Shown here piece after piece: positions 1,351 through 61,149 of a stretch of DNA of 64,000 bases. The notes below the pieces were generated by a model, which was not told the DNA's origin, did no database searches, and saw nothing but the letters and a program-made list of their open reading frames with translations. Source of the DNA: Owenia fusiformis (lineage: Eukaryota > Annelida > Polychaeta > Sabellida > Oweniidae); assembly GCA_903813345.2 (NCBI GenBank), contig CAIIXF020000008.1, positions 18,524,822 through 18,588,821 on the forward strand. Direction: 5' to 3'. A program made the position numbers and the translations under genes. Numbering within the stretch: the first letter of the stretch is position 1; every line of letters begins with the position of its first letter.

Positions 1351-1850
1351 ACCAATCATCAAAATTCTTCCCTGGGATATATCTCATATCTTTACCCATA
1401 CATGGAATAACCTCTATATATACATTCTAGGGTTGACATAGGGGGTGATTACAGTGGAGAAAATCCATGATGTTTACCAATCACGAATGTCCTTCCCTGG
1501 GATGTATCCCATATCTTTACCCATACATGGGATAACTTCTATATATATACATACCAGGGGTGACATTGGGGGTGATTACTGTGGAGAAAATCCATGATGT
1601 TTACCAATCATGAATGTGCTTCCCTGGGATGTATCTCATATCTTTACCCATACATGGAATAACCTCTATATATACATTCTAGGGGTGACATAGGGGTGAT
1701 TACAGTGGAGAAAATCCATGATGTTTACCAATCATGAATATCCTTCCCTGGGATGTATCCCATATCTTTACCCATACATGGGATAACTTCTATATATACA
1801 TACCAGGGGTGACATTGGGAGTGATTACTGTGGAGAGAATCCTTGGTGTA
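1351..1850. repeat. ~125-bp tandem repeat, 4 units
   Basis: Four units, each with TTCCCTGGGATGTAT, CATATCTTTACCCATACATG and GGTGATTACAGTGGAGA. Lies in the pecanex intron; no coding potential seen. The flanking 1017-1350 shows nothing recognisable. Confidence 0.85.
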
Positions 1851-1925
1851 CATCCATCATGAACCATGACATCTAAACACCCTGGAACTGAGGGACCATC
1901 TCCACTACAACCATCTAGAAACATA

Positions 1926-2685: not shown

Positions 2686-2723
2686 GGTCCTGAAAAGGAC
2701 CGTTTGTAGCCCTGAAAAGTGCT
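2686..2723 (-). terminator. Histone-type 3' hairpins of copy 1
   Basis: On the minus strand, hairpin 1 (2708-2723, AGCACTTTTCAGGGCT) has a broken stem. Hairpin 2 (2686-2701, GGTCCTTTTCAGGACC) has a perfect 6-bp stem and TTTC loop, fits the histone consensus GGYYYUUHUHARRRCC and is followed by ACCA. A purine-rich element, CAAAAGAGAAA, at 2663-2673 matches the core of the histone downstream element. Confidence 0.85.
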
Positions 2724-2783
2724 GTTTTCTTGGCATGGAGGCGATCAGGGAAGTTGATGTTCCAGCAGAAAATATCTGCTTCT

Positions 2784-3182
2784 TCATTCATCTATATAAT
2801 CATCTTCTTCATCATCAATAAATGAATATTCAGACTCAGCATCAGAATCTTGGACTTCCATCTGTTGAACTTTGGTCTTCAGTTCTTGGACCACTTCAGC
2901 CATCTCTTGAGCGTAGTAGTAGAACATCATCTTCATGTTGCTGAGCGTGGATAGCTGTAGACGCAGGGAATAGCGATGAGCCTCTCTGTGGTTCTCCTTG
3001 GCTCGCTTGTAGCGCACCTCTACCATCTTGGTTCGGTCATCAATCACCAGTAGCTGGTCACAGGCCTTGGTGAACTTTCTGTAGGCAAAATCTAGCTGTT
3101 CAATTGTTTGTTCCCGATCTAGGTCCTGTTCCCTCTCTGGCACTCCATAAGCCTCAGATTCTTGTATAGAGTAGGAATCCAT
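2784..3182 (-). CDS. Histone-hairpin family protein, copy 1
   Basis: Intronless 132-residue ORF starting MDSYSIQESEAYGVPEREQ. I do not recognise the family. The ATG sits in the context CAC-A-ATGG-like (here TCAAAATGG), conserved in all copies. An acidic N terminus is followed by a long helical core without Pro or Gly (YRKFTKACDQLLVIDDRTK, NHREAHRYSLRLQLSTLSNM, MKMMFYYYAQEMAEVVQEL) and a C-terminal acidic tail with SEYSFIDDEEDDYIDE. It lies inside the large pecanex intron on the same strand, head to head with copy 2. Histone-type hairpins follow the stop. Confidence 0.85.
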   Translation of the reverse strand: MDSYSIQESEAYGVPEREQDLDREQTIEQLDFAYRKFTKACDQLLVIDDRTKMVEVRYKRAKENHREAHRYSLRLQLSTLSNMKMMFYYYAQEMAEVVQELKTKVQQMEVQDSDAESEYSFIDDEEDDYIDE

Positions 3183-3258
3183 TTTGAATTGATGTAATGT
3201 TGTGATGTGATTGCTAGGCAAGTCAGATCAGTAATGACTTGGTATGTCAGAGATGGAG

Positions 3259-3414
3259 TTTATATACTTTTTTCACAGGAAAAGGAAACCATGTCAGATT
3301 ATTGTTTATTCATGGATTGCATGCAAACTTCAAAGCCACCTGATATTAAAAACATGAACATCAAACACTGGCTTGTTTTGACAGGGACACCTAACTTACA
3401 CACTATAAGCCAAT
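3259..3414 (-). promoter_or_regulatory. Promoter of copy 1
   Basis: Minus-strand TATATAAA at 3259-3266, TTTGCATGCAAT at 3316-3327 (related to the ATTTGCAT octamer of H2B promoters) and an ATTGG (CCAAT inverted) at 3410-3414. The same three elements in the same order precede copies 3, 4 and 5. Confidence 0.75.
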
Positions 3415-3904
3415 CAAGCTAATCTCTATGATTAAAACCTGACTTCAAACACAATGCCAGAGGAAACAAACATATGAAAGGTAAGATATACTTAACAACA
3501 CAACTGCAAAAATAACAGGATGTGTTTATAATATGTAAAATATATTCTTTTTTTATCAATTTGAATAAATGTCATTTTTACTTTTTGCCGTATTTGTTAA
3601 TTCTTTATGTTGATTTACCTCATAATTATTACCGTAAGATTTTCAGATAAAATTAGACCAAAATTGCTGTTTGTAGCAATATATATAAAACGGTTTTCTG
3701 TCCTAGTTGAATAGATAATAGAGTCATTCATGTGTACCCGTATATTTACAGTAGTCAAGATTTTGTGTTAATCTGCCAGAAAATATGATTACATCTTGTC
3801 TTAAAAATACAGTTTTGGTAAAATTACACAAAATGTTGTTTTTCTTCATTTAACTTATATCTCCTACTTTTCATTTACTGTCATGATTATTCTCTGAAAA
3901 AATC

Positions 3905-4650
3905 TGTTTCAAACTGATTATTGAGTGTATATAGTGTTTGAAGTGATTGTTTTAATCATAGGGGGATAATAGGTGTCTTTGGTGTTTTTATATACGTTAA
4001 TCCTGAAACCATCAGACACTATAGTTTCAAACTGATTACTGAGTGTATATGGTGTTTGAAGTGATTGTTTTAATCCTAGGGATAATAGGTGTCTTTGGTG
4101 TTTTTATATACTTTAATCCTGAAACCATCAGACACTATAGTTTCAAACTGATTACTGAGTGTATATGGTGTTTGAAGTGATTGTTTTAATCATAGGGGGA
4201 TAACAGGTGTCTTTGGTGTTTTTATATACTTTAATCCTGAAACCATCAGACACTATAGTTTCAAACTGATTATTGAGTGTATATAGTGTTTGAAGTGATT
4301 GTTTTAATCCCAGGGATAATAGGTGTCTTTGGTGTTTTATATACTTTAATCCTGAAACCACCAGACACTATGGTTTCAAACTGATTATTGAGTGTATATA
4401 ATGTTTGAAGTGATTGTTTTAATCAGAATCCTAGGGATAATAGGTGTCTTTGGTGTTTTTATATACTTTAATCCTGAAACCACAAGACATTATGGTTTCA
4501 AACTGATTATTGAGTGTATATAATGTTTGAAGTGATTGTTTTAATCAGAATCCTAGGGATAATAGGTGTCTTTGGTGTTTTATATACTTAAATCCTGAAA
4601 CCATCAGACATTATAGTTTCAAACTGATTATTGAGTGTATATAAATACCA
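3905..4650 (+). repeat. ~117-bp tandem array ending in the copy 2 TATA box
   Basis: Six to seven units of about 115-124 bp, each starting TTTCAAACTGATTA and containing GAGTGTATAT. The last unit runs into TATATAAA (4638-4645), placed like the TATA box of the other copies. The octamer-like and CCAAT elements of the other copies are absent upstream. Confidence 0.85.
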
Positions 4651-4719
4651 GCACTTACAATTCTAAGTCATTACTGATCTGATTTGCCTAGCAATCACAT
4701 CACATTACATCAATTCACA

Positions 4720-5124
4720 ATGGATTCCTACTCCATACAAGAATCTGAGGCTTATGGAGTGCCAGAGAGGGAACAGACCATTGATTTGGAGCAAACCCTT
4801 GACCAGCTAGGTGTAGCCTATAGAAAATTCACCAAGGCCTGTGACCAGCTACTGGTGATTGATGACCGGACCAAGATGGTAGAGGTGCGCTACAAGCGAG
4901 CCAAGGAAAACCACAGAGAGGCTCATCGCTATTCTCTACGTCTACAGCTATCCACTCTCAGCAACATGAAGATGATGTTTTATTACTATGCTCAAGAAAT
5001 GGCTCAAGTGGTCCAAGAACTGAAGACCAAAGTTCAACAGATGGAAGTCCAAGATTCTGATGCTGATGCTGAGTCTGAATATTCATTCATTGCAGATGAA
5101 GAAGATGAAGATATGGATGATTGA
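4720..5124 (+). CDS. Histone-hairpin family protein, copy 2
   Basis: Intronless 134-residue ORF, ATG in CACAATGG. Core nearly identical to the other copies, with a few substitutions (LGVAYRKF, AQEMAQVV) and many silent changes (for example TAT for TAC in the YYY run), so it is the most diverged DNA with a conserved protein. The tail is SEYSFIADEEDEDMDD. Confidence 0.85.
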   Translation: MDSYSIQESEAYGVPEREQTIDLEQTLDQLGVAYRKFTKACDQLLVIDDRTKMVEVRYKRAKENHREAHRYSLRLQLSTLSNMKMMFYYYAQEMAQVVQELKTKVQQMEVQDSDADAESEYSFIADEEDEDMDD

Positions 5125-5183
5125 AGCCGATGTTGTCAACCAGCACTTCCTTGATACAGTAGCTACTATGGCCCAAAGAAAAC

Positions 5184-5242
5184 AGCACTTTTCAGCGCTA
5201 CAAACGGTCCTTTTCAGGACCACCAAAAACTTACAAAAGAGA
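5184..5242 (+). terminator. Histone-type 3' hairpins of copy 2
   Basis: Hairpin 1 (5184-5199) has a one-mismatch stem. Hairpin 2 (5206-5221, GGTCCTTTTCAGGACC) is perfect and followed by ACCA; CAAAAGAGAAA starts at 5234. Confidence 0.85.
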
Positions 5243-5249
5243 AATTGAC

Positions 5250-6780
5250 AATGAATTTGTTTTGTTCCGTACTTGTGTGAAGTAAGAAAGAGTGCTATAA
5301 ATAACTTTCCCTCTGTCAACCTTCTAAGGCAGAACATTTGACAACTCATTCATTTTTTCAATTCCAATTATCGTAGATATGTATTTTGAAGAAATCAAAT
5401 TTTCAATTCAGTTTTTTATTCTAAAATAATCATTGTATGGAATCTGTAGTACTGCACCAACCATAACTATTGGAGGTACCAAGATGCACTCACACCCAGC
5501 AATGACGAGACAACAACAATATAGCATTTTGATAAAGTGTGATACAATTGGCACAACACAATGGGCTCACATGGTAAAAAGTTGATTTCCGTTGCAATCC
5601 TAGATACTCCAGTGATATATTTTATGTTTTTCTCTTTCTAGAGGTGGCCAATAATGCTATATTGCCTCGGCGATTCACAATCTATGTAAATAATTATGTT
5701 GAATAATATGGAAATAAAAAACAATAACCTAAAAAAAAGGGAAAGGTAGGAGCCAGGACCTATGGTGTAAATTACCAGCAGGTACCCTAACAAAATGGAT
5801 ATGAGCATCGTTTCTGACAAATGCCACTTTTCATGATGGACAGCCCAATGACAGATAGATGAATGGGTGAGACTCAGAATCACTGTGTGATCCAGACATC
5901 GCATTATTTCTACTGGCATTATGATCATGATCTACCACAGAGCAAAAAATTATGTAAATAACATAACAATCAATTTCAAGGTTGTATGTTGTCATAGGTG
6001 ACATACTTTAGTTGCAAGTATCATCCATGGTGTATAACCATAGGACAATTTACATGTGAAAATATAGTTTTAAAAATAAAATGAAATATTTCAATATCAC
6101 ATTATGACTGAAAAATCCCCTGGTTTGCTTATTGTACTAATGATTGGGAACATTGAAGTTTTAAACACATAGATTTAAAAATTTAATCTCTTTGATTGTT
6201 GTCATAAAGACAAACTAGACAACAGCAACGCCAAAGTGTAGCAAATCCCATCGAACAGCCATGGCTGGCATTTTTAGAAACAAAGTATGTAGCAAAAATG
6301 GCAGCCATTTTTCAAAATGGCCACCTTCTACCAAAAGTGTCATTAGACTGTCTGCCATGCTTATAGTATTCACATACCAAATATAAACAAAATTACTCCA
6401 CTACTTTTCGAGTTACAGCAAAAATCGTAAAATAAAGAGTAAAGGCTGCCATTTTTCAAGATGACTGCCATGTGCTTCTTAAATATCTACATTTCTAGCT
6501 TTATTAATTCATTCGATGGGACAATAATTTGAAACCATTTATTAACAGTATCATAAGTTTAAGCTATTGGCGGAAATTTTTTAGATAATATAGACTTAAC
6601 TTATCACTTTTATATGAGTTAATGAGTTTATAAATATTAATTGAAATAAAATTGTGATTTCAAAATCCTAAAATAACAAAAAACATCCTGTTATTTTTAA
6701 AGTTCTATCTTAATATAATAGAAAGGGTTGTTGATATCAACAATACCCTTTGATATGTTTGAAGTAAAGTTTTAATCACA
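5250..6780. other. Spacer between copies 2 and 3
   Basis: AT-rich, no supported gene. The short ORFs here have no family resemblance. Nothing else recognised. Confidence 0.5.
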
Positions 6781-6792
6781 GAGATTAGCTTG

Positions 6793-6946
6793 ATTGGTTT
6801 ATAGTGTGACAGTGAAGTCAACCTGTCAAAGGAGACAGTATTTGAAGTTTTTGTTTTTAATACCTAGTGGCTTTGAAGTTTGCATGCAATACATGAATAA
6901 ACAATAATCTGACATGGTTTCCTTTTCCTGTGAAAAAGTATATAAA
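6793..6946 (+). promoter_or_regulatory. Promoter of copy 3
   Basis: ATTGG at 6793-6797, TTTGCATGCAAT at 6879-6890 and TATATAAA at 6939-6946, followed by a conserved leader (AAGTCATTACTGATCTGACT) that probably contains the transcription start. Confidence 0.75.
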
Positions 6947-7023
6947 CCCCATCTCTGACATACCAAGTCATTACTGATCTGACTTGCCTAGCAATCACAT
7001 CACAACATTAAAACAAATTCACA

Positions 7024-7419
7024 ATGGATTCCTACTCTATGCAAGAATCTGAGGCTTATGGAGTGCCAGAGAAAGAACACACTCCTGATCTTGAGCAAAC
7101 CATTGAACAACTAGATGTTGCCTACAGAAAGTTCACCAAGGCCTGTGACCAGCTACTGGTGATTGATGACCGAACCAAGATGGTAGAGCTACGCTACAAG
7201 CGAGCCAAGGAGAACCACAGAGAGGCTCATCGCTACTCTCTACGTCTACAGCTATCCACACTCAGCAACATGAAGATGATGTTCTACTACTACGCTCAAG
7301 AGATGGCTGAAGTGGTCCAAGAACTGAAGACCAAAGTTCAACAAATGGAAGTCCAAGATTCTGATGCTGAGTCTGAATATTCATTTATTGATGAAGAAGA
7401 TGATTATATAGATGAATGA
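7024..7419 (+). CDS. Histone-hairpin family protein, copy 3
   Basis: Intronless 131-residue ORF from MDSYSMQESEAYGVPEKEH, ATG in CACAATGG. Same helical core; one conservative change (VEL for VEV). The acidic tail, SEYSFIDEEDDYIDE, is the shortest in the cluster. About 1.9 kb before copy 4, with alignable flanks. Confidence 0.85.
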   Translation: MDSYSMQESEAYGVPEKEHTPDLEQTIEQLDVAYRKFTKACDQLLVIDDRTKMVELRYKRAKENHREAHRYSLRLQLSTLSNMKMMFYYYAQEMAEVVQELKTKVQQMEVQDSDAESEYSFIDEEDDYIDE

Positions 7420-7479
7420 AGAAGCAGATATCTTCTGGTGAAACATCAACTTCCCTGATCGCCTCCATTCCAAGAAAAC

Positions 7480-7560
7480 AGCCCTTTTCAGGGCTACAAC
7501 AGCCCTTTTCAGGGCTACAACCGGTCCTTTTCAGGACCACCAAATACTTACAAAAGAGAA
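7480..7560 (+). terminator. Three tandem histone-type hairpins of copy 3
   Basis: AGCCCTTTTCAGGGCT occurs twice (7480-7495 and 7501-7516), then GGTCCTTTTCAGGACC (7523-7538) with ACCA and CAAAAGAGAA at 7551-7560. All three stems pair fully. The extra hairpin is a 21-bp local duplication. Confidence 0.88.
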
Positions 7561-8696
7561 TTATATTATGAATTTGTTTTGTTCAATTTTGTGTGAAACT
7601 AAAGTGTTATATGAAAAAATAAATAAATGAGTCTTTGTATGCCTTACAGAAATGTAAACAGCACAAAAAAACTTTCAAAATTCCGAACTACAGTACATTA
7701 TTTTCACGACAATCAAACATCAATATATAACCTAACCTTTGAAAATAATTGTATGAAAACAGTAGTGATATTGCAATTGTAGCAACTGGGGAGCAATAAT
7801 CTTCTATGAGCCTAGGTCCTCCCCAAAAATATAAATGATATTATGTAATAAAAACAATATCCTTAAAAAAGTTGAAATATTAGTAGTAATATTAGTAGAC
7901 ATATTACCGAAAAAAATACCAAATTCTGAACAAGAGATAAATAAACAGACCATTCAGCTGGCTCATATGGTTAAAAAGCTGATTTCTTTCAAACAATGCA
8001 AAAGTAGGAGCAAGAGCAAGGACCAATGATGTAAATCGTGGACCCAAATACACATACGAACACTGGCTAAGAAAATGGGTCATTCTCATTTGTCTGTAGA
8101 TTATTGTAAGGTGGATGGACAGATGAGTGGACAATTCCATATACCTGTACTTGGCATGTTACCAAGAAATCACATTATTTCTTCTGACACTATCATGTAC
8201 TATCTATAAATTATGTAAAATTAAAAGCCATTACATTTTAAAGATGTACATTGTCAAATTTGAAATTAAATTAGTTAATGATAAATAATTCTTTCTTTGA
8301 ATTGCAAAAAGAAACAATTTGCACAATTAAAAATATTGTTCTCAAAATGAAATGAAATATTCTAGTTTTGTATTATGACTGATAATCCCATGGTTTGATT
8401 ATGTACAGTTGTTTGATAACCTTGTAGTTTAAACATATTATCAGTACAATAATCTCTTTGATTGACGACATGAAGATAAAACATTTGAAACCAATTATAG
8501 ACACTATAATCTTAGCTATTGGTGACATTGTGTTTAGGATTTAGTGTAGCTTTTTTAGCTAGTAAATTGAAACTTAATTGGTTTAAAAATGACAAATACA
8601 AGTACCTCTAATTTTGAATGAACATGTAATAATAAAAACATCCTGTTATTTTGCATGCATGTCTGAAGTAAAGTTTTAATCACAGAGATTAGCTTG

Positions 8697-8841
8697 ATTG
8701 GTTTATAGTGTGACAGTCAAGTCAAGGAGACAGTGTTTGAAGTTTTTGTTTTTAATACCAGGTGGCTTTGAAGTTTGCATGCAATACATGAATAAACAAT
8801 AATCTGACATGGTTTCCTTTTCCTGTGAAAAAGTATATAAA
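8697..8841 (+). promoter_or_regulatory. Promoter of copy 4
   Basis: ATTGG at 8697-8701, TTTGCATGCAAT at 8774-8785 and TATATAAA at 8834-8841, with spacing like copy 3. Confidence 0.75.
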
Positions 8842-8916
8842 TCCATCTCTGACATACCAAGTCATTACTGATCTGACTTGCCTAGCAATCACATCACAAC
8901 ATTACAACTATTCACA

Positions 8917-9321
8917 ATGGATTCCTACTCTATGCAAGAATCTGAGGCTTATGAAATGCCAGAGAGGGAACAGACTCCTGATCTGGAGCAAACCATTGAA
9001 CTACTAGATGTTGCCTACAGAAAGTTCACCAAGGCCTGTGACCAGCTACTGGTGATTGATGACCGAACCAAAATGGTACAGGTGCGCTACAAGCGAGCCA
9101 AGGAGAACCACAGAGAGGCTCATCGCTACTCTCTACGTCTACAGCTATCAACACTTAGCAACATGAAGATGATGTTCTACTACTACGCTCAAGAGATGGC
9201 TGAAGTTGTTCAAGAACTGAAGACCAAAGTTCAACAAATGGAAGTCCAAGATTCTGATGCTGATGCTATGTCTGAATATTCATTCATTGATGAAGAAGAA
9301 GATGATTATATAGATGAATGA
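8917..9321 (+). CDS. Histone-hairpin family protein, copy 4
   Basis: Intronless 134-residue ORF, ATG in CACAATGG. Core as in the others; Gln replaces Glu in the VEV segment (MVQVRYKR). Tail with DADAMSEYSFIDEEEDDYID. Part of a recent ~1.9 kb tandem duplication with copies 3 and 5. Confidence 0.85.
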   Translation: MDSYSMQESEAYEMPEREQTPDLEQTIELLDVAYRKFTKACDQLLVIDDRTKMVQVRYKRAKENHREAHRYSLRLQLSTLSNMKMMFYYYAQEMAEVVQELKTKVQQMEVQDSDADAMSEYSFIDEEEDDYIDE

Positions 9322-9381
9322 AGAAGCAGATATCTTCTGGTGGAACATCAACTTCCCTGATCGCCTCCATGCCAAGAAAAC

Positions 9382-9441
9382 AGCTCTTTTCAGGGCTATA
9401 AATGGTCCTTTTCAGGACCACCAAATACTTACAAAAGAGAA
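9382..9441 (+). terminator. Histone-type 3' hairpins of copy 4
   Basis: Hairpin 1 at 9382-9397 (AGCTCTTTTCAGGGCT, one G-U pair). Hairpin 2 at 9404-9419 (GGTCCTTTTCAGGACC) then ACCA, with ACAAAAGAGA at 9431-9440. AATAAA sequences about 60 nt further down could act as a fallback polyadenylation signal. Confidence 0.87.
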
Positions 9442-10602
9442 TTTTATTATGAATTTGCTTTATTCAATTTTGTGTGAAACTAATGTGTTATATAAAAAAT
9501 AAAATAAATGAGTAAACAGAAATGTAAACAGCACAATAAACCTTTAAAAAATTCCCAACTACAGTACATTATTATTTTCAAATCAATAAACATTAACCTT
9601 ACCTTTGAAAAAAATTGTATGAAAACACTGTAGTGCTATTGCAATTGTAGCAACTGGGGAGCAATAATGTTCTATGAGCCTAGGTCCTCCCAACAAATAA
9701 AATGATAATTATGAAATAAAAACAATATCCTTAAAAAAGTTGAAATCATAATTTCAAAAGCAAGACATATTACCAAAACCAAATTCTGAACAACAGATAA
9801 ATAATAAAAAGTACCATTCAGCAATGGTTAAGAAGCTGATTTCTTTAAAAAGTAGGTGCAGGCACCTAAATGATGTAAATTATCAGCATGGACCCAAATA
9901 CACACACGAACATTGGCTAAGAAAATTGGTCATTCTCATTTGTCTGTAGATTATTGTAAGGTGGATGGACAGATGAGGGGACAATTCCATATACTTGGCA
10001 TGTTACCAAGAAATCACATTATTTCTTCTGACACTATCATGTACTATCTATAAATTATGTAAAATTAAAAGCCATTACATTTTAAAGATGTACATTGTCA
10101 AATTTGAAATTAAATTAGTTAATGATAAATAATTCTTTCTTTGAATTGCAAAAAGAAACAATTTGCACAATTAAAAATATTGTTCTCAAAATGAAATGAA
10201 ATATTCTAGTTTTGTATTATGACTGATAATTCCATGGTTTGATTATGTACAGTTGTTTGATAACCTTGTAGTTTAAACATATTATCAGTACAATAATCTC
10301 TTTGATTGACGTCATGAAGATAAAACATTTGAAACCAATTATGAACACTATAATCTTAGCTATTGGTGACATTGTGTTTAGGATTTAGTGTAGCCTTTTA
10401 GCTAGTAAATTGAAAATTAATTAGTTTAAAATGACAATTACAAGTACCTCTAATTTTTAATGAACATGTAATTATAAAAACATCCTGTTATTTTTGCATG
10501 CATGTCTTAACAAAAGCTGCTAACATAAATAAACTGCTTTGATATGTTTGTTTCCTCTGGCATTGTGTTTGAAGTCAAGTTTTAATCATAGAGATTAGCT
10601 TG

Positions 10603-10757
10603 ATTGGCTTATAGTGTGTTAGTCAAGTGTCCCTATCAAAACAAGCCAGTGTTTGATGTTCATGTTTTTAATATCTGGTGGCTTTGAAGTTTGCATGCAA
10701 TCCATGAATAAACAATAATCTGACATGGTTTCCTTTTCCTGTGAAAAAGTATATATA
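10603..10757 (+). promoter_or_regulatory. Promoter of copy 5
   Basis: ATTGG at 10603-10607, TTTGCATGCAA at 10690-10700 and TATATATA at 10750-10757. Confidence 0.75.
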
Positions 10758-10833
10758 CCCCATCTCTGACATACCAAGTCATTACTGATCTGACTTGCTT
10801 AGCAATCACATCACAACATTACAACAATTCACA

Positions 10834-11238
10834 ATGGATTCCTACTCTATGCAAGAATCTGAGGCTTATGGAGTGCCAGAGAGAGAACAGACTCCTGATC
10901 GGGAGCAAACCATTGAACTACTAGATGTTGCCTACAGAAAGTTCACCAAGGCCTGTGACCAGCTACTGGTGATTGATGACCGAACCAAGACGGTAGAGGT
11001 GCGCTACAAGCGAGCCAAGGAGAATCACAGAGAAGCTCATCGCTACTCTCTACGTCTACAGCTATCCACACTCAGCAACATGAAGATGATGTTCTACTAC
11101 TACGCTCAAGAGATGGCTGAAGTGGTCCAAGAATTGAAGACCAAAGTTCAACAGATGGAAGCCCAAGATTCTGATGCTGAGTCTGAATATTCATTCATTG
11201 ATGAAGAAGATGAAGATGATGAAGATATGGATGAATGA
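10834..11238 (+). CDS. Histone-hairpin family protein, copy 5
   Basis: Intronless 134-residue ORF, ATG in CACAATGG. Core as in the others with Thr for Met in the DRTKM segment and Ala for Val after QQME. Longest acidic tail (IDEEDEDDEDMDE). It lies about 290 bp from pecanex exon 5, on the opposite strand. Confidence 0.85.
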   Translation: MDSYSMQESEAYGVPEREQTPDREQTIELLDVAYRKFTKACDQLLVIDDRTKTVEVRYKRAKENHREAHRYSLRLQLSTLSNMKMMFYYYAQEMAEVVQELKTKVQQMEAQDSDAESEYSFIDEEDEDDEDMDE

Positions 11239-11309
11239 AGAAGCAGATGTTTTCAACCAGAAATTCAACATCCCTGATACAGCGGCTGCTCCAATGGTTT
11301 GAAGAAAAC

Positions 11310-11371
11310 AGCCCTTTTCAGGGCTACAAAAGGTCCTTTTCAGGACCATCAAATACTTACAAAAGAGAAAT
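11310..11371 (+). terminator. Histone-type 3' hairpins of copy 5
   Basis: AGCCCTTTTCAGGGCT at 11310-11325 and GGTCCTTTTCAGGACC at 11332-11347, both fully paired, then ATCA in place of ACCA, and CAAAAGAGAAA about 14 nt on. Confidence 0.87.
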
Positions 11372-12331: not shown

Positions 12332-12528
12332 CTGCAATTATAAAAGTGAATATCATATTTGTGTGCATTTTTAAAAGGAAGGGTTAGTTTTATGATTAAT
12401 CCATGAGATGCTCCTTTTTCACATTAATTAATTAATTATTCAAAAATTCAGGTTGAATTCTATCTTTTTGATTTTGTTATGATTACACATTTCAAAATTA
12501 TTTGGATATTTCATATCAGGGACTTAGT

Positions 12529-13755
12529 ACATACCTCTACTATCTGTCATACTGGCCCTTGAGCTACATAGTACTGGGGGTGTAATACATACCTCTACTA
12601 TCTGCCATACTGGCCCTAGAACTACATAGTACTGGGGGTGTAATACATACCTCTACTATCTGCCATACTGGCCCTAGAGCTACATAGCACTGGGGGTGTA
12701 ATACATACCTCTACTATCTGCCATACTGGCCCTAGAGCTACATAGCACTGGGGGTGTAATACATACCTCTACTATCTGCCATACTGGCCCTTGAGCTACA
12801 TAGTACTGGGGGTGTAATACATACCTCTGCTATCTGCCATACTGGCCCTAGAACTACATAGTACTGGGGGTGTAATACATACCTCTACTATCTGCCATAC
12901 TGGCCCTAGAACTACATAGTACTGGGGGTGTAATACATACCTCTACTATCTGCCATACTGGCCCTAGAACTACATAGTACTGGGGGTGTAATACATACCT
13001 CTACTATCTGCCATACTGGCCCTAGAACTACATAGTACTGGGGGTGTAATACATACCTCTGCTATCTGCCATACTGGCCCTTGAGCTACATAGTACTGGG
13101 GGTGTAATACATACCTCTACTATCTGCCATACTGGCCCTAGAACTACATAGTACTGGGGGTGTAATACATACCTCTGCTATCTGCCATACTGGCCCTTGA
13201 GCTACATAGTACTGGGGGTGTAATACATACCTCTGCTATCTGCCATACTGGCCCTTGAGCTACATAGTACTGGGGGTGTTATACATATACCTCTACTATC
13301 TGCCATACTGGCCCTTGAGCTACATAGTACTGGGGGTGTAATACATATACCTCTACTATCTGCCATACTGGCCCTAGAGTTACATAGTACTGGGGGTGTA
13401 ATACATACCTCTGCTATCTGCCATACTGGCCCTAGAGCTATATAGTACTGGGGGTGTAATACATACCTCTACTATCTGCCATACTGGCCCTAGAGCTACA
13501 TAGTACTGGGGGTGTAATACATACCTCTACTATCTGCCATACTGGCCCTAGAACTACATAGTACTTGGGGTGTAATACATACCTCTGCTATCTGCCATAC
13601 TGGCCCTAGAACTACATAGTACTTGGGGTGTAATACATACCTCTGCTATCTGCCATACTGGCCCTTGAGCTACATAGTACTTGGGGTGTAATACATACCT
13701 CTACTATCTGCCATACTGGCCCTAGAGCTACATAGTACTGGGGGTGTAATACTGC
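12529..13755 (-). repeat. 58-bp array of exon end plus splice donor, 21 copies
   Basis: Read on the minus strand, each unit holds ATTACACCCCCAG, then 39 nt equal to the last 39 nt of pecanex exon 3, then GAG|GTATGT. Donors occur from 13698 down to 12534, 20 periods of 58 bp apart (two units carry an extra TA). The recurrent differences between units fall at a few positions, which suggests array-wide copying. Confidence 0.95.
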
Positions 13756-14408: not shown

Positions 14409-17725
<3,317 letters not shown>

Positions 17726-18764
17726 TAGATATCGGCATTCATAAAATGTCTGAATATTAAAGATAAAAGCTGCTGTTCCCATGGGTGTAGCGCTATTTTT
17801 CTCAGTAGTATGCCACCACCACAGGAACAAGAGTTGAGTGAATAAAAAAACGAGCATCCAGGGGGGTCTGGGGGTTCTCCCCCAAGAAAATTTTGAAATT
17901 TGGTTGTATTTGGGGCGAATTTGCAACCATCTGGTACGCCTGTGCGTACTGGGCGCTACGCCCATGGTTCCCATCTTCCATATCTTGCATCAAGTTGCTT
18001 GCCCTTCACTTAGGTTTACTTCATACTAGACATTCAATGTCTTGTTGTATCCAGGTGTTTAGACAGAGTTTACTGTTTTAGCTTGAGATAAAATCTATTG
18101 TTTAATATGTTGGATATTATTAAACATTTTATATGTCCTAAAATTATCAGGGTAGTAAAGATATGCCTACATACATACATAAAATAAAGTGTTAAATGGA
18201 GTTTATTTATTGGTTGTTCTCAGAGTTGGAATTAAACCTGTGCTCAATTGTTCTAATTTTTGTTGATAAGAACAATACTTTAAGTCATAAATAAGTGAAA
18301 AGGAGGAACTTTAGTCAGACATTTCAGATAATCTTCTAGGAAGGGGAGAGTAAGACTAAGTTGACAGCTGATGGCTTTTACATGCCTATCAATGTGTTAG
18401 TATTTGCGTGTCAACAATTATTGAGTGTTATATATTGTATTATATGTGAGATTTTATAATGTTGAAGTTGAACCAACCGCAATATCTAAAAATCTATATG
18501 TTTATGCATATCGGCCACACCTTCGAAAATGAAGATTTTATTATTGTTTTCGCAGCTAGAGCTCAAAAATTATTGAAAAACATACATCTGTTGTTTATGA
18601 TAAACTGTTTGATACTGACAGATTAAATGGGAGATCACGATTCCCCCATTGAAATGTTGTGTATATCATGCTGATAGTTAACTAATCATTTATTCATTAG
18701 CCGAACTATTACTCAAAGTTCAATGTTATTTCCCTGATGTATTTAACCTTGTTCCAATAATATC

Positions 18765-38360: not shown

Positions 38361-39071
38361 TTAGTAGACACATGTTCCTTCCTCTTCGCTTATTGGTAGA
38401 GAAAGGGTCAGCGTGGCTGATTTGATTTATTACCCGGGCTGTCACAGGCACCAATCTTTGGGGTGGGACTGCTAAACTGTAATATAGTCTATACTAGGCA
38501 GAGGGTAGTTTATAACTAGATTCTACGTAAAGGGTAGAAGTTAGATAGACAGCAAAGTAAAATCATCAGTATTACTTCGGAAAAAAAATTATTATTGCAT
38601 TCAAATACAAGTACAAGGAATTTCTCAGAACAGACTAAATAGATGAAAACAACAGGCAAAATTAATTGAAATGATAAATTTAACATGGAAAAGTTGAAAA
38701 GTCCCTAAAAACAACCGGTAATTTTATGAACACAACCGGTGAAATTTGCCCGTTGCCTGCTGCTTTAATGAAACCCCTGTAATGCAAGTATTTTCGAATA
38801 TTTGTCGAACAAATGTGAACATATCAGCATCAATGTAACATTTCGGAATAAACGAGAAAGAGGATTAAAGCAATGGAAACAAACAAATCATTGATATCAT
38901 CCATCATTTCAAAAGATAAACTGACAGCTGTCGATGTGTATCCTGATTCAGTCTTGATCTTATGAACTCTTCTTTGAAAAAACTTTGTTAGGAGGAAACA
39001 GACTTGCGGTGTTACTTTGTAAATTATATAAAAATCCAGACAATGAGCATTATTTTAGTTATACAGTAATT

Positions 39072-40553
39072 TGATGCATGGTTGCATGTCTAAATCTGAT
39101 GCATGACTGCATGTCTTAATCTGATGCATGACTGCATGTCTTAATCTGATGCATGACTGCATGTCTTAATCTGATGCATGACTGCATGTCTTAATCTGAT
39201 GCATGACTGCATGTCTTAATCTGATACATGACTGCATGTCTTAATCTGATGCATGACAGCATGTCTTAATCTGATGCATGACTGCATGTCTTTATCTGAT
39301 GCATGGCTGCATGTCTTAATCTGATGCATGACTGCATGTCTTAATCTGATGCATGACTGCATGTCTTAATCTGATGCATGACTGCATGTCTTAATCTGAT
39401 GCATGACTGCATGTCTTAATCTGATGAAGACTGCATGTCTTAATCTGATACATGACTGCATGTCTTAATCTGATGCATGACTGCATGTCTTAATCTGATG
39501 CATGGCTGCATGTTTTAATCTGGTGCATGACTGCATGTCCTAATCTGATGTATGACTGCATGTCTTAATCTGATACATGACTGCATGTCTTAATCTGATA
39601 CATGACTGCATGTCTTAATTAGAAGCATGACTGCATGTCTTAATCTGATGCATGACTGCATTTCTTAATCTGATGCATGACTGCATGTCTTAATCTGATG
39701 CATGACTGCATGTCTTAATCTGATACATGACTGCATGTCTTAATCTGATGCATGACTGCATGTCTTAATCTGATACATGACTATATGTCTTAATATGATG
39801 CTTGACTGCATGTCTTAATCTGATGCATGACTGCATGTCTTAATCTGATGCATGATTGCATGTCTTAATCTGATTCATGACTGCATGTCTTAATCTGATA
39901 CATGACTGCATGTCTTAATCTGATGCATGACTGCATGTCTTAATCTGATGCATGACTGCATGTCTTAATCTGATACATGACTGCATGTCTTAATTTGATG
40001 CATGACTGCATGTCTTAATCTGATGCATGATTGCATGTCTTAATCTGATGCATGATTGCATGTCTTAATCTGATTCATGACTGCATGTCTTAATCTGATA
40101 CATGACTGCATGTCTTAATCTGATGCATGACTGCATGTCTTAATCTGATGCATGACTGCATGTCTTAATCTGATACATGACTGCATGTCTTAATTAGAAG
40201 CATGACTGCATGTCTTAATCTGATGCATGACTGCATGTCTTAATCTGATACATGACTGCATGTCTTAATCTGATACATGACTGCATGTCTTAATCTGATG
40301 CATGATTGCATGTCTTAATCTGATGCATGACTGCATGTCTTAATCTGATGCATGACTGCATGTCTTAATCTGATGCATGACTGCATGTCTTAATCTGATA
40401 CATGACTGCATGTCTTAATTTGATGCATGACTGCATGTCTTAATCTGATGCATGACTGCATGTCTTAATCTGATGCATGATTGCATGTCTTAATCTGATT
40501 CATGACTGCATGTCTTAATCTGATGCATGACTGCATGTCTAATCTGATGCATG
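39072..40553. repeat. 25-bp satellite, left block
   Basis: Unit TGATGCATGACTGCATGTCT-TAATC repeated about 59 times, with recurrent variants (TACATG, TTGCATG, TTTATC). Interrupted by a transposon at 40554-41653, then continues. Confidence 0.95.
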
Positions 40554-41653
40554 CAGGCCTCGAAATTAGCGTTGCGAAGGTAGCGATTCGCTACCTGTTT
40601 TCCCAGAACACTACTTGTCATTTCCTCCAATTAGCTAACTTCGCTAGTTCAAAACAGCCAGACCCGAAGATTTGGTAAGAAAAAAGATCGAACTTCTGAG
40701 AAATGAAGTGAGCGATAATAGAGTACTCACACTAAAAAGTGATAAAAATGACACATGTTGTAATTCGATGCATCCTCCCGATAAATATGCATCAGTGGGT
40801 CCTTTTAACACAATTCTAAACTAATATTATCTCAAAATAGGCTGAAATGAATGAAAGAAATGTTCAAATTTAGAGTCGTTTCCGCATTTAACCAAGTAGT
40901 CTTTTGCGCAGCTTTTTTGCGCATGTCAACATGACAGTCAAGGTCATGAACTTTAGTTTGACGTTTCCTCTTTCTTTCTAACATTTCTCGTTATTCTTAC
41001 GACTTTTACATGGAAAATGACGATCTATCATTAAACAAATAGCTTTCAGTATAATATCAGATTGATATCGAACGGTCTCTAGCCGAAATAATAAAGATAA
41101 TCGGGGAGAACATATCATTCAATTCGCGGGGCTCCACTAGGGAATTCTGCAATATTTTTTACTGATTTTATTTGTTTATTGATTCTTGGTTCATTTAGCG
41201 ATCTTTACCGTAAACTCTCCAATAACAATCCATTCCATTATTATACTCCGTTCTGATGTTGCAAATTAGTCATTTTTGGCAAGAAAACTTTGCCATACAT
41301 GAAATTCCCGGGGATTTTTTACTTCTTCCATATATCTAATAGAGTGCAGTGTTCTCCCCAGGATTTTATCTCAAGTGGGTGCAAAATTCTTGCCTATTTT
41401 TCACGTTTTTCTCATTTTCAAGTAGGTGCAAATTGATTCTCAGGTTGGTGCATGCCTATTACCAAAATCTCAAGTGGGTGCAGCGCAATTGCTGCTGGGG
41501 AGATCACTACAGTGTAATATCTTATTATTGCGCTAGTAAGTCATAAGAATAAAGATCGAAATCTTCACTATCTGGTTCTCTCAAATAGCTACCTGGAAAA
41601 TTCACTAAGTAGTGAAACAACTACCTGATAAAAAAAGTTAAGCGCGAGGCCTG
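40554..41653. mobile_element. 1.1 kb DNA transposon in the satellite, 5-bp TSD
   Basis: Inverted ends CAGGCCTCG, flanked by GCATG (40549-40553 and 41654-41658); removing the element and one GCATG restores a normal satellite unit. No transposase. A CTCCCCAG-family MITE is nested at 41348-41508. Segment 40690-40790 resembles 56290-56430 (GCGATAATAGAGTACT-ACACTAAAA). Confidence 0.92.
41348..41508. mobile_element. MITE, CTCCCCAG family, copy C, nested
   Basis: Ends AGTGTTCTCCCCAG and CTGGGGAGATCACT, with AAGTGGGTGCA near both ends; lies inside the 1.1 kb transposon. Confidence 0.78.
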
Positions 41654-43250
41654 GCATGACTGCATGTCTTAATCTGATACATGACTGCATGTCTTAATCT
41701 GATACATGACTGCATGTCTTAATCTGATGCATGACTGCATGTCTTAATCTGATGCATGACTGCATGTCTTAATCTGATGCATGACTGCATGTCTTAATCT
41801 GATGCATGACTGCATGTCTTAATCTGATACATGACTGCATGTCTTAATCTGATACATGACTGCATGTCTTAATCTGATGCATGACTGCATGTCTTAATCT
41901 GATGCATGACTGCATGTCTTAATCTGATGCATGACTGCATGTCTTAATCTGATACATGACTGCATGTCTTAATCTGATACATGACTGCATGTCTTAATTT
42001 GATGCATGATTGCATGTCTTAATCTGATGCATGACTGCATGTCTTAATCTGATGCATGACTGCATGTCTTAATCTGATACATGACTGCATGTCTTAATGT
42101 GATACATGACTACATGTCTTAATCTGATGCATGACTGCATGTCTTAATCTGATGCATGACTGCATGTCTTAATCTGATGCATGACTGCATGTCTTAATCT
42201 GATGCATGACTGCATGTCTTAATCTGATACATGACTGCATGTCTTAATCTGATGCATGACTGCATGTCTTAATCTGATGCATGACTGCATGTCTTTATCT
42301 GATGCATGACTGCATGTCTTAATCTGATACATGACTACATGTCTTAATCTGATGCATGACTGCATGTCTTAATCTGATACATGACTACATGTCTTAATCT
42401 GATGCATGACTGCATGTCTTAATCTGATACATGACTGCATGTCTTAATCTGATGCATGACTGCATGTCTTAATCTGATGCATGACTGCATGTCTTAATCT
42501 GATGCATGACTGCATGTCTTTATCTGATGCATGACTGCATGTCTTAATCTGATACATGACTACATGTCTTAATCTGATGCATGACTGCATGTCTTAATCT
42601 GATACATGACTGCATGTCTTAATCTGATGCATGACTGCATGTCTTAATCTGATGCATGACTGCATGTCTTAATCTGATGCATGACTGCATGTCTTAATCT
42701 GATGCATGACTGCATGTCTTAATTTGATGCATGATTGCATGTCTTAATCTGATACATGACTGCATGTCTTAATCTGATGCATGACTGCATGTTTTAATCT
42801 GATGCGTGCCTGTGTGTTTTAATCTGATGTATGACTGCATGTCTTAATCTGATGCATGACAGCATGTCTTAATCTGATGTATGACTGCATGTCTTAATCT
42901 GATGCATGACTGCATGTCTTAATCTGATGCATGACAGCATGTCTTAATCTGATGCATGCCTGTATGTCTTAATCTGATGCATGACTGCATGTCTTAATCT
43001 GATGCATGACAGCATGTCTTAATCTGATGCATGCCTGTATGTCTTAATCTGATGTATGACTGTATGTCTTAATCTAATACATGACTGCATGTCTTAATCT
43101 GATGCATGACTGCATGTCTTAATGGATTGCATGGCTGCATGTCTTGATCTGATGCATGACTGTATGTCTTAATCTGATGCATGCCTGTATGTCTTAATCT
43201 GATGTATGACTGCATGTCTTAATCTGATGTATGACTGCATGTCTTAATCT
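41654..43250. repeat. 25-bp satellite, right block
   Basis: About 64 more units of the same satellite. Variants cluster at the right edge (GCCTGTATG, GACAGCATG), as expected of an array boundary. Confidence 0.95.
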
Positions 43251-52579: not shown

Positions 52580-53240
52580 GGGAGATATCTACCTTCTTTG
52601 GGAGAATGTTACCTTCTCTGGGAGAATGTTACCTTCTTTGGGAGAATGTTACTTTCTCTGGGAGAATGTTACCTTCTTTTGGAGAATGTTACCTTCTCTG
52701 GGAGAATGCTACCTTCTTTGGGAGAATGTTACTTTCTTTTGGAGAATGTTACCTTCTTTGGGAGAATGTTACCTTCTCTGGGAGAATGCTACCTTCTTTG
52801 GGAGAATGTTACCTTCTCTGGGAGAATGTTACCTTCTCTGGGAGAATGTTACCTTCTTTGGGAGAATGTTACGTTCTCTGGGAGAATGTTACTTTCTTTG
52901 GGAGAATGTTACGTTCTCTGGGAGAATGTTACCTTCTCTGGGAGAATGTTACCTTGTTTGGGAGAATGTTACCTTGTTTGGGAGAATGTTACCTTCTCTG
53001 GGAGAATGTTACCTTGTTTGGGAGATTGTTACCTTCTCTGGGAGATATCTACCTTGTTTGGGAGAATGTTACCTTCTCTGGAAGACTGCTACCTTCTCTG
53101 GGAGAATGTTACCTTCTCTGGGAGATATCTACCTTCTCTGGGAGAATGTTACCTTCTCTGGGAGAATGTTACCCTCTCTGGGAGAATGTTACCTTCTCTG
53201 GGAGAATGTTACCTTCTCTGGAAGACTGCTATCCTATCCT
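52580..53240 (+). repeat. 20-bp minisatellite open in three frames
   Basis: About 33 units of GGGAGAATGTTACCTTCTCT with small variants (CTTTG, TTGTTTG, GATATCT). No stop in any forward frame, giving overlapping ORFs of 266, 239 and 220 residues with the same 20-residue repeat (GRMLPSLGECYLLWENVTFS). Probably noncoding: it is intronic, with no family resemblance. Confidence 0.92.
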
Positions 53241-58738: not shown

Positions 58739-59156
<418 letters not shown>

Positions 59157-59743
59157 TGAAGAACTGTACTTTCACAGTGTTATTGATATTTACAGCGTTT
59201 TTAATTAATCACTAGCCAGGGCACTGTTTGATTGACAAAATTATGATTCATTTTTGATTTTCATTTTTGATGTCATGAATTCCTGAAAGATAATTTCTTC
59301 AAGAAAATCCAGATTATTTATTCATCTATGCCTGCCTTAATTCACTGAGACAAACAGCTGGGATTTTTCTATGAAGGCAAACCTATGTGGGATTGATTCA
59401 TTAGATTACGCGAAATGTCTATGCTACATGGTTTCTATTTTAGAGGATTAGTAATGAGTTAATTAAAGTAAATTTCCTGCAAGATATGATCCACATTATT
59501 ATATGGCGATATGAATATACATGTATATTCCCATATGAAGTTCTTTGGAATTATTTTTCCTGCAGTGCTAAGAGAAATATCAATTATAGCAGGCAATACA
59601 AAAATTCAAAGGTTGACATTTTAAAGATTAAACACAAAAATTAAATCTTAGGTTTTGGAGATGTATATTGTCAAGATAAACCCCATATCTAAAACCTTCC
59701 AGTGCATAACCATTTGAGTACATTGTTTGTTTCTTTCTTGTAG

Positions 59744-59919
59744 ACTGTTGGAACCCTGAACCTCATGAAAGACCTACATTCCGGGAGCTTCTAGCTGTGC
59801 TAGAAGAGATTGCTGACTCGCCATTCATGGATACCCCCAACGAGTCATTCCACACGATGCAGGAAGACTGGCGGCTGGAGATTGAGGATATGTTTAATGA
59901 GCTCAGGAAGAAAGAAGCG
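59744..59919 (+). CDS. MAP3K9-like (MLK): MLK coding exon 4: end of kinase domain
   Basis: Acceptor CTTGTAG, donor GCG|GTAAAT; phase 1 in, phase 0 out. It begins DCWNPEPHERPTF, the conserved final kinase subdomain, and runs into FHTMQEDWRLEIEDMFNEL, the start of the leucine-zipper region. Confidence 0.93.
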
Positions 59920-60181
59920 GTAAATAGGATTAAATTATTATTATATGCCTATAAGTGTTCACTTTCCTTGGCAACCCCAAATCCCTATTGGATAGCCTTT
60001 ATACGAATCATTACATAGTTTATCACAAATTAAGATAAGTTTTTTTTCATGTTATAATTTTATTTCAAATATAAACTGATATCAACGGACAATCAGCTAA
60101 TTGCCAAGATTTTTCAACTTGAGCAGCAATTTGAATTTTTTATTTTTTCCAAATGTTTGACACTAACAGTTTCTATTTCAG

Positions 60182-60431
60182 GAGTTACGATCGAGAGAAG
60201 AGGAGCTGTCGAAAGCTGCGTCAGAACAAAAACTGCAGGAAGAATTCCTGAAAAAACGCGAACAAGAACTCGCTGAGCGGGAAATCGATCTCTTAGAACG
60301 TGAACTAAACATTCTTATCTTACATCAAAACATAAGTAAACCCGTACCAAAGAAACGTAAGGGAAAATTCAAGAAAAATAAACTCAAGATGCTTAAGAAT
60401 AGTGGAGGGAAAATCATCAGCGAACCTTCAG
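60182..60431 (+). CDS. MAP3K9-like (MLK): MLK coding exon 5: leucine zippers and basic stretch
   Basis: Acceptor ATTTCAG, donor TCAG|GTAATT; phase 0 to 1. Residues ~417-499 form a heptad coiled coil (ELRSREEELSKAA, REQELAEREIDLLERELNIL), the tandem leucine zipper by which MLKs dimerise, followed by KKRKGKFKKNKLK and the first half of the CRIB motif (ISEPS). Confidence 0.93.
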
Positions 60432-61149
60432 GTAATTTTTTTGAGGTTTTATGCTCAGTAATATTTCATTAAATTTTGTACATTCGCCCCATAAAGCACA
60501 AAAATAGGTGCAAGTGAACAATAGGGATTTTGCAGGAAAATTCAGTATGTCTGCAAGTTTTTTTTCTCGTGAAAGTTTACAAGTTTATCGCTTTATAAAA
60601 TATGATCCCAGAATGGTAAAAAGTGACTTCCATATCGGTTCAACATTGCAAGTTTTACTTTAATGCATTATATAGAATTGACTTTTTCACCTTAACAAGA
60701 ATGAAATCCATGGAGTCCACGACTATCGGGAATACCTTGAGGGGATAAATATCAACTTGTTTAGTTTGCAATCAAACAATATTGATTATCAAACAAACAG
60801 GAAATTGATGTCTTGAAACTTGGTATTGACGAGTAATTGGAAAATGAATTTGTGGCCAGCATAAGGATGTCTATCTTTGACAGCTAAGGACATGAAATAG
60901 ACAGATCACTTTACATTTAATAGATAGAATAAAACTCGATTGATTGTTCAACAGTATATACTCGCTTAAGTGATTATGTCAACGTCAGTTTCAATGTAAA
61001 TTATAAATTACATTTAAAAGTTTCTCCTTGACATACTAATATCTCACAAAGTATTTTGTCAAACTCTTTGACATTTTCAGCTATTTTTAGTATTGATACT
61101 TACGCCACATCTTTGTACTTATTAATTGTACTATTAAATGTGAATAAAC

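Follow-up and report, generated by a model that had tools for sequence, protein, structure and literature searches.

Non-histone genes of the annelid Owenia fusiformis bear putative histone-type 3′ ends

RESULTS

A five-gene array with histone-type hairpins

We analyzed a window of 64,000 nucleotides (nt) from Owenia fusiformis (assembly GCA_903813345.2, contig CAIIXF020000008.1, positions 18,524,822 to 18,588,821 of the forward strand), in which an initial annotation had noticed a family of small genes ending in hairpins of the kind found on replication-dependent histone genes. The window contains five uninterrupted ATG-to-stop open reading frames (ORFs) of 131 to 134 amino acids (aa), gene 1 on the minus strand and genes 2 to 5 on the plus strand, and the encoded proteins share 90 to 94% identity with that of gene 3. 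Five exact copies of GGTCCTTTTCAGGACC are present in the window, compared to an expectation of 0.27 matches in shuffled sequences when up to 3 mismatches were allowed (largest shuffled count, 2). Each copy lies 3′ of one ORF and on the same strand, 81 to 103 nt past the stop codon. All five hairpins matched the Rfam family Histone3 (RF00032) with 39.3 to 42.3 bits (cut-off, 34); nothing else in Rfam exceeded its own cut-off in the window. The stem is followed by ACCA in four genes and by ATCA in gene 5, and each gene has CAAAAGAGAA, resembling the downstream element bound by U7, beginning 12 nt past the stem. Hairpin, flank and downstream element are therefore present as initially annotated.

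The description of the hairpins as tandem was also borne out. Every gene has an extra hairpin of this type, beginning 22 nt upstream of the main hairpin. In genes 3, 4 and 5 it is wholly paired (G-U pairs allowed), and in genes 1 and 2 a single pair is mismatched. A third hairpin is found in gene 3. Folding z-scores of the whole 3′ untranslated region (UTR), ranging from -0.63 to -4.01, constitute weak evidence. At the 5′ side, a TATA box or TATA-like element is located 82 to 85 bp upstream of the ATG in every gene. A 118-bp tandem repeat of 6.2 copies (window positions 3906 to 4643) abuts gene 2 upstream and reaches into its promoter region. Coordinates are listed in Table 1.

Table 1. Features of the five window genes (positions in the window)
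Feature	Position	Strand	Basis
Gene 1 ORF, 132 aa	2784..3182	-	ORF list; subfamily ratio of nonsynonymous to synonymous substitutions (dN/dS) 0.17, purifying selection
Gene 1 main histone-type hairpin	2686..2701	-	Rfam, 41.7 bits
Gene 1 upstream hairpin, one mismatch	2708..2723	-	Pairing inspection
Gene 1 downstream element CAAAAGAGAA	2664..2673	-	Sequence match
Gene 1 TATA box, about 84 bp 5′ of ATG	3260..3266	-	Promoter reading
Gene 2 ORF, 134 aa	4720..5124	+	ORF list
Gene 2 main hairpin	5206..5221	+	Rfam, 39.3 bits
Gene 2 upstream hairpin, one mismatch	5184..5199	+	Pairing inspection
Gene 2 downstream element	5234..5243	+	Sequence match
Gene 2 TATA box, 82 bp 5′ of ATG	4638..4646	+	Promoter reading
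Gene 3 ORF, 131 aa	7024..7419	+	ORF list
Gene 3 main hairpin	7523..7538	+	Rfam, 42.3 bits
Gene 3 two upstream hairpins (7480-7495, 7501-7516)	7480..7516	+	21-bp tandem repeat
Gene 3 downstream element	7551..7560	+	Sequence match
Gene 3 TATA box, 85 bp 5′ of ATG	6939..6946	+	Promoter reading
Gene 4 ORF, 134 aa	8917..9321	+	ORF list
Gene 4 main hairpin	9404..9419	+	Rfam, 39.8 bits
Gene 4 upstream hairpin, one G-U pair	9382..9397	+	Pairing inspection
Gene 4 downstream element	9432..9441	+	Sequence match
Gene 4 TATA box, 83 bp 5′ of ATG	8834..8841	+	Read from letters
Gene 5 ORF, 134 aa	10834..11238	+	ORF list
Gene 5 main hairpin	11332..11347	+	Rfam, 39.4 bits
Gene 5 upstream hairpin	11310..11325	+	Pairing inspection
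Gene 5 downstream element	11360..11369	+	Sequence match
Gene 5 TATA-like TATATATA, 84 bp 5′ of ATG	10750..10757	+	Read from letters

The array belongs to a genome-wide superfamily

Using one window protein as the query, 88 matches were obtained in the 498-Mb genome, with arrays on C3, C6, C8, C10 and C12 plus divergent relatives. The window is thus one array of a genome-wide superfamily, the extent of which was understated by the coordinates of the initial annotation. We examined 83 loci, comprising 80 of the 88 matches (the other 8 were short fragments) and three loci found via their hairpins (L032, L039 and L053). In 81 of them, a hairpin with five or all six stem positions paired was present, and in 71 a strict AAGAG started 14 to 16 nt past the hairpin. 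The loop is mostly TTTC (TCTC in L006 and L098), the flank after the stem varies (ATCA, ATCC, AACC, ACCA, ACCT and others), and many copies carry a second, upstream hairpin. Hairpins occur in both halves of the superfamily tree, and histone-type ends are retained among paralogues down to about 25 to 35% protein identity. An in-frame stop was found in 7 of the 80 matches; mean dN/dS was 0.10 to 0.24 in nine subfamilies, by estimates that ignore gene conversion, and indicates purifying selection. Scores with a family profile suggest that two further hairpin-bearing genes, L140 (32.2 bits) and L141 (30.9 bits; best shuffled control, 11.5), are probably distant members and that L037 (17.6 bits) may be one; L041 (9.7 bits) was not separable from the shuffled controls.

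Within the window clade (26 members), identity was 0.96 in the hairpin and 0.94 in the downstream element, compared to 0.50 over the preceding 45 nt and 0.56 over the 60 nt that follow. Between four divergent clades, the values were 0.89 and 0.90 for hairpin and element and 0.41 and 0.54 for the flanks before and after; the baseline for random AT-rich sequence was 0.39 to 0.49. Placement of hairpin and element by pattern inflates their values in these comparisons. The stem covaries, with pairs 1 and 3 altered on both sides: among 80 loci, pair 1 was G-C in 60, A-T in 13, T-A in 3, G-T in 1 and mismatched in 3, and pair 3 was T-A in 59 and C-G in 21. Placement by pattern does not explain these compensated changes. 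The 13 distinct hairpins had 76 of 78 cells paired, which none of 5,000 shuffles reached in a test that ignores the relatedness of the copies.

The encoded proteins are not histones

The window proteins carry a net charge of -14 to -17, their core being slightly basic and their tail acidic, in agreement with the acidic character first ascribed to them; some divergent superfamily members are basic (L131, +10; L032, +5). No Pfam family matched the window proteins or 23 scanned superfamily members at its cut-off, and no histone family matched either the five window proteins (E values up to 10) or the 23 members (E value of 0.05). The core histone family PF00125, which does find the core histones, gave 75 matches in the genome, none of them at a superfamily locus. 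Four H1 proteins, used as a positive control, were identified by Pfam as Linker_histone with 99.5 to 106.1 bits. Histone identity, core or linker, was therefore rejected, in agreement with the initial annotation.

The only recurrent similarity, a weak one, was to tubulin binding cofactor A (TBCA; PF02970), with a best E value of 5.1e-5 and 24.0 bits at a cut-off of 30.3. The match spans nearly the whole domain and was obtained for 7 of 23 members at an E value of 0.05. When ten members were scanned against PF02970, the three from the window clade matched and the seven divergent ones did not; eight reversed sequences gave no TBCA match (best E value, 0.013). A TBCA structure was also hit by the family profile among solved structures, with an E value of 0.19. 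We keep the relation to TBCA as a weak lead. AlphaFold predicted a single helix spanning residues 23 to 115 from the five window sequences (predicted local distance difference test score, 79.6; predicted template modeling score, 0.37) and an acidic tail of low confidence, and this model is uninformative on the fold. No histone chaperone matched the superfamily proteins in Pfam or PDB searches. Matches to the structures of BAP31 (1.7e-5 with profile A2), bS21, CENP-U and others (E values above 0.005 for all but BAP31) were coiled coil-like and were not accepted as homology. A viral origin was likewise rejected: tblastn found no relative in viral contigs, and no PHROG matched with an E value below 0.03.

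The 3′ ends resemble those of the genome's own histone genes

At one core histone repeat (L075), GGTCCTTCTCAGGACC forms the end of the H2B, H3 and H2A genes and is followed by ACC and by AAAAGAG 13 nt past the stem; the stem (GGTCC/GGACC) is identical to that of the superfamily. The core histone clusters were located on C8, C11 and C10, consistent with the two large clusters and one small cluster of H4-H3-H2A-H2B units, with H2A on the opposite strand, that a published account describes for O. fusiformis (PMC12153100). The H1 genes, identified by Pfam for four proteins and by eye for the remainder, are both dispersed and clustered and end in a GGCCC-type hairpin, ACC and CAAAAGAG. The RNA-binding domain of SLBP (PF15247) is encoded on C5 in two exons (58.7 and 33.8 bits; cut-off, 27). 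In a search for a promoter common to these genes and histone genes, the only 7-mers occurring in the superfamily, histone and other hairpin classes that passed the set counts were TATAAAT, AATCACA and AAACACA, and the idea of a shared promoter was rejected.

The H1 promoter box TTCTCTRACGTCCGCR occurs 140 times in the genome (backward control, 0), for example at C6:277524, C9:4767248 and C1:50079939. Many of the 100 listed sites (of 140) have no known hairpin site nearby; the box thus marks other genes or repeats too.

Histone-type ends are found elsewhere in the genome

The initial annotation had assumed that hardly any animal genes other than those for histones have histone-type ends, and this assumption fails in O. 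fusiformis. A genome-wide count of the hairpin pattern GGYCCTTHTYAGGRCCA gave 222 sites (100 of them listed), compared to 0 for the backward control. A Histone3 census, which is a lower bound because 75 of 98,277 candidates were scored, placed 73 of the 75 above the cut-off. According to classes assigned by inspection of the locus evidence, 25 matches belong to the superfamily and another 25 to histone genes, namely 20 to H1 and 5 to core histones, two of the latter adjoining PF00125 matches with an in-frame stop. In all, 50 of the 75 are off histone genes. Besides the superfamily, these 50 comprise five other small helical proteins, three members of a Cys-rich family, two GDSL-like proteins, three Tc1-like transposase genes (one intact and two broken, by eye) and 12 sites without an intact ORF. 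One GDSL-like protein scored above the Pfam cut-off (L021, 5.4e-8) and the other below it (L044, 1.2e-4); a transposase (L023) exceeded the DDE_3 cut-off (4.9e-18). Sites of GGYCCTTHTYAGGRCCA outside the Histone3 list include genes for a basic protein of about 250 aa, intact in L144, L145 and L148 and broken in L146, L147, L150 and L152. Another Cys-rich family with the hairpin is represented by L154 and L155.

Several of these loci are associated with mobile elements or repeats. L158 (C1:50077501-50087400) contains a reverse transcriptase ORF of 634 aa from stop to stop (RVT_1, 6.4e-13), which we take to be Penelope-like from its motifs. It is followed by an ORF for the basic protein of about 250 aa with its own TATA box, an H1-type promoter box (TTCTCTGACGTCCGC), a histone hairpin and a downstream element; two copies make a perfect inverted repeat of 2,812 nt. 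L159 (C3:1549001-1554500) is an intact Tc1-like transposase gene (DDE_3, 7.8e-18) with a histone-type hairpin at its end, and a search for terminal inverted repeats at this locus found no clear ones. Dispersed ORF-less repeats (L027 to L031, L035 and L036) share a conserved 3′ part that ends in hairpin and element, with two more hairpins upstream in L028. Three single ORFs for small helical proteins, at L056 (C4:28161136-28162130), L142 (C1:46450237-46451213) and L051 (C12:29023172-29024168), also carry the hairpin module, and none of them has a detectable relation to the superfamily.

Other features of the window

Further tandem arrays occupy window positions 1351 to 1863 (124 bp, 4.1 copies), 12528 to 13752 (58 bp, 21.1 copies), 39067 to 43250 (25 bp, 167.2 copies) and 52590 to 53225 (20 bp, 31.8 copies). 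ORFs at 16883 to 17728 and 58821 to 60472 resemble, by eye, exons of an SH3-domain, mixed-lineage-type kinase gene.

DISCUSSION

The conserved parts of the superfamily 3′ UTRs are histone-pathway signals at histone spacing. Therefore, judging from sequence, we regard it as very probable that these non-histone genes have genuine histone-type 3′ ends and that their mRNAs are cleaved 3′ of the hairpin and carry no poly(A). The superfamily genes would then be functional and protein coding, with the histone 3′-end pathway finishing their mRNAs. Transcription would start downstream of the TATA box and yield an unspliced pre-mRNA, the hairpin of which would be bound by SLBP, while the U7 small nuclear ribonucleoprotein would pair with the CAAAAGAG element; the 5′ end of the U7 small nuclear RNA (snRNA) would be expected to pair with CAAAAGAGA. 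Cleavage just 3′ of the hairpin, at or near ACCA, would leave an mRNA that ends in the hairpin. Such an mRNA would be coregulated with histone mRNA, being made and stable during DNA replication, and would probably be stored in the egg for use during the fast cleavages. While we infer the cut site and the absence of poly(A) from the signals themselves, S-phase or embryonic expression is suggested by the known replication coupling and embryonic use of SLBP-bound mRNAs.

Several observations weigh against genuine histone-type ends. No hairpin was found in two of the 83 superfamily loci (L065 and L066), and ten others have weaker forms of the strict AAGAG or none, the degenerate elements including AAAAGTG, TTAGAG and GAGGAG. 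A U7 snRNA was not found in the genome by Rfam (best match, 24.2 bits; cut-off, 34), and two U7 pattern searches returned fewer hits than their controls (73 versus 129 and 194 versus 222); we consider this a failure to find the gene, because U7 must serve the histone genes too. Gene conversion within arrays can also keep copies alike, and the cautions given above for the identity values and the shuffle test count in the same direction. Finally, A[A/T]TAAA hexamers 78 to 203 nt past the stem in four of the five window genes make polyadenylation possible. The mRNAs could accordingly be polyadenylated downstream, in which case the hairpin would act within the 3′ UTR as a binding element for SLBP, or both types of end could be made; human H2A.X mRNA is reported to have a dual 3′ end (PMC7807067). 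However, gene 2 has no such hexamer within 330 nt after the stop, and the downstream element, which is of use solely to U7-type cutting, is conserved like the hairpin and at histone spacing. We consider polyadenylation, alone or alongside histone-type cutting, unlikely.

It is even less probable that the hairpins are functionless at the superfamily genes and hitch-hiked there, spread either by mobile elements or through gene conversion involving histone genes. The presence of the same module on ORF-less dispersed repeats, transposase genes and a retroelement ORF would fit such a history, as would the likeness of young arrays. Against it stand the compensated stem changes, the restriction of conservation between clades to hairpin and element with near-random flanks, and the constant spacing of the module, which lies at the same place after the stop of ORFs under selection. 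The 3′ ends would be ordinary if the proteins were unrecognized histones or histone-like basic proteins. The genes are indeed small, multicopy, uninterrupted and tandem, and the basic divergent members could be cited in support; yet the window proteins are acidic, no histone family matched, and four H1 proteins and the core histones of the same genome were found by Linker_histone and PF00125, respectively, which makes this explanation highly improbable.

With genuine histone-type ends as the preferred explanation for the superfamily, the census points further. It is likely that O. fusiformis has a second, non-histone set of histone-type mRNAs, encoded by host genes and mobile elements alike, and that the histone-only rule is broken wholesale. 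The carriers would be the superfamily, other small helical families, the Cys-rich and GDSL-like families, the Tc1-like transposase and the retroelement ORF. To our knowledge, only replication-dependent histone mRNAs are made with this 3′ end, and no description of non-histone genes with histone-type 3′ ends was recognized in the titles and abstract beginnings of open-access PMC literature. The kind of 3′ end is already known; its use by non-histone genes is the new aspect. As a guess, offered with considerable doubt, the superfamily protein, in view of its long helical core, its acidic tail and the histone-like tandem arrays of its genes, may be abundant and needed in proportion to DNA replication, for example as a chaperone-like partner of histones or of tubulin, the latter option being suggested by the weak TBCA similarity. 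The histone-binding or chromatin-assembly role in eggs or embryos initially proposed is likewise a guess and has no homology support.

If this interpretation is correct, the histone 3′-end pathway can be recruited by a large set of non-histone genes and by mobile elements, and the role of the histone-type end could be studied separately from the histone protein itself. Poly(A)-selected RNA sequencing would then under-report a whole class of genes in O. fusiformis and perhaps in other animals.

Compared to the 3′ end of replication-dependent histone mRNAs (RF00032), which is served by SLBP and the U7 ribonucleoprotein, the superfamily ends share the 6-bp stem, the 4-nt loop, the purine-rich downstream element and the spacing, whereas many superfamily copies differ in having a second hairpin upstream. 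The genes resemble replication-dependent histone genes in their short UTR, uninterrupted ORF and tandem arrangement, and the letters match those of the genome's core histones, except that the core histones read have a TCTC loop and the superfamily mostly TTTC; the proteins, however, are not histones. The superfamily is also like the H1 genes in being both dispersed and clustered and in ending with the same kind of hairpin, ACC and CAAAAGAG. In contrast, the H1 proteins are unrelated to the superfamily proteins, and most H1 promoters read carry a TTCTCTRACGTCCGC box, which was absent from the 130 nt of the superfamily promoters inspected. TBCA is similar in being a small helical protein with a weak match across the domain, but the score lies under the PF02970 gathering cut-off and the superfamily is not assigned as a member.

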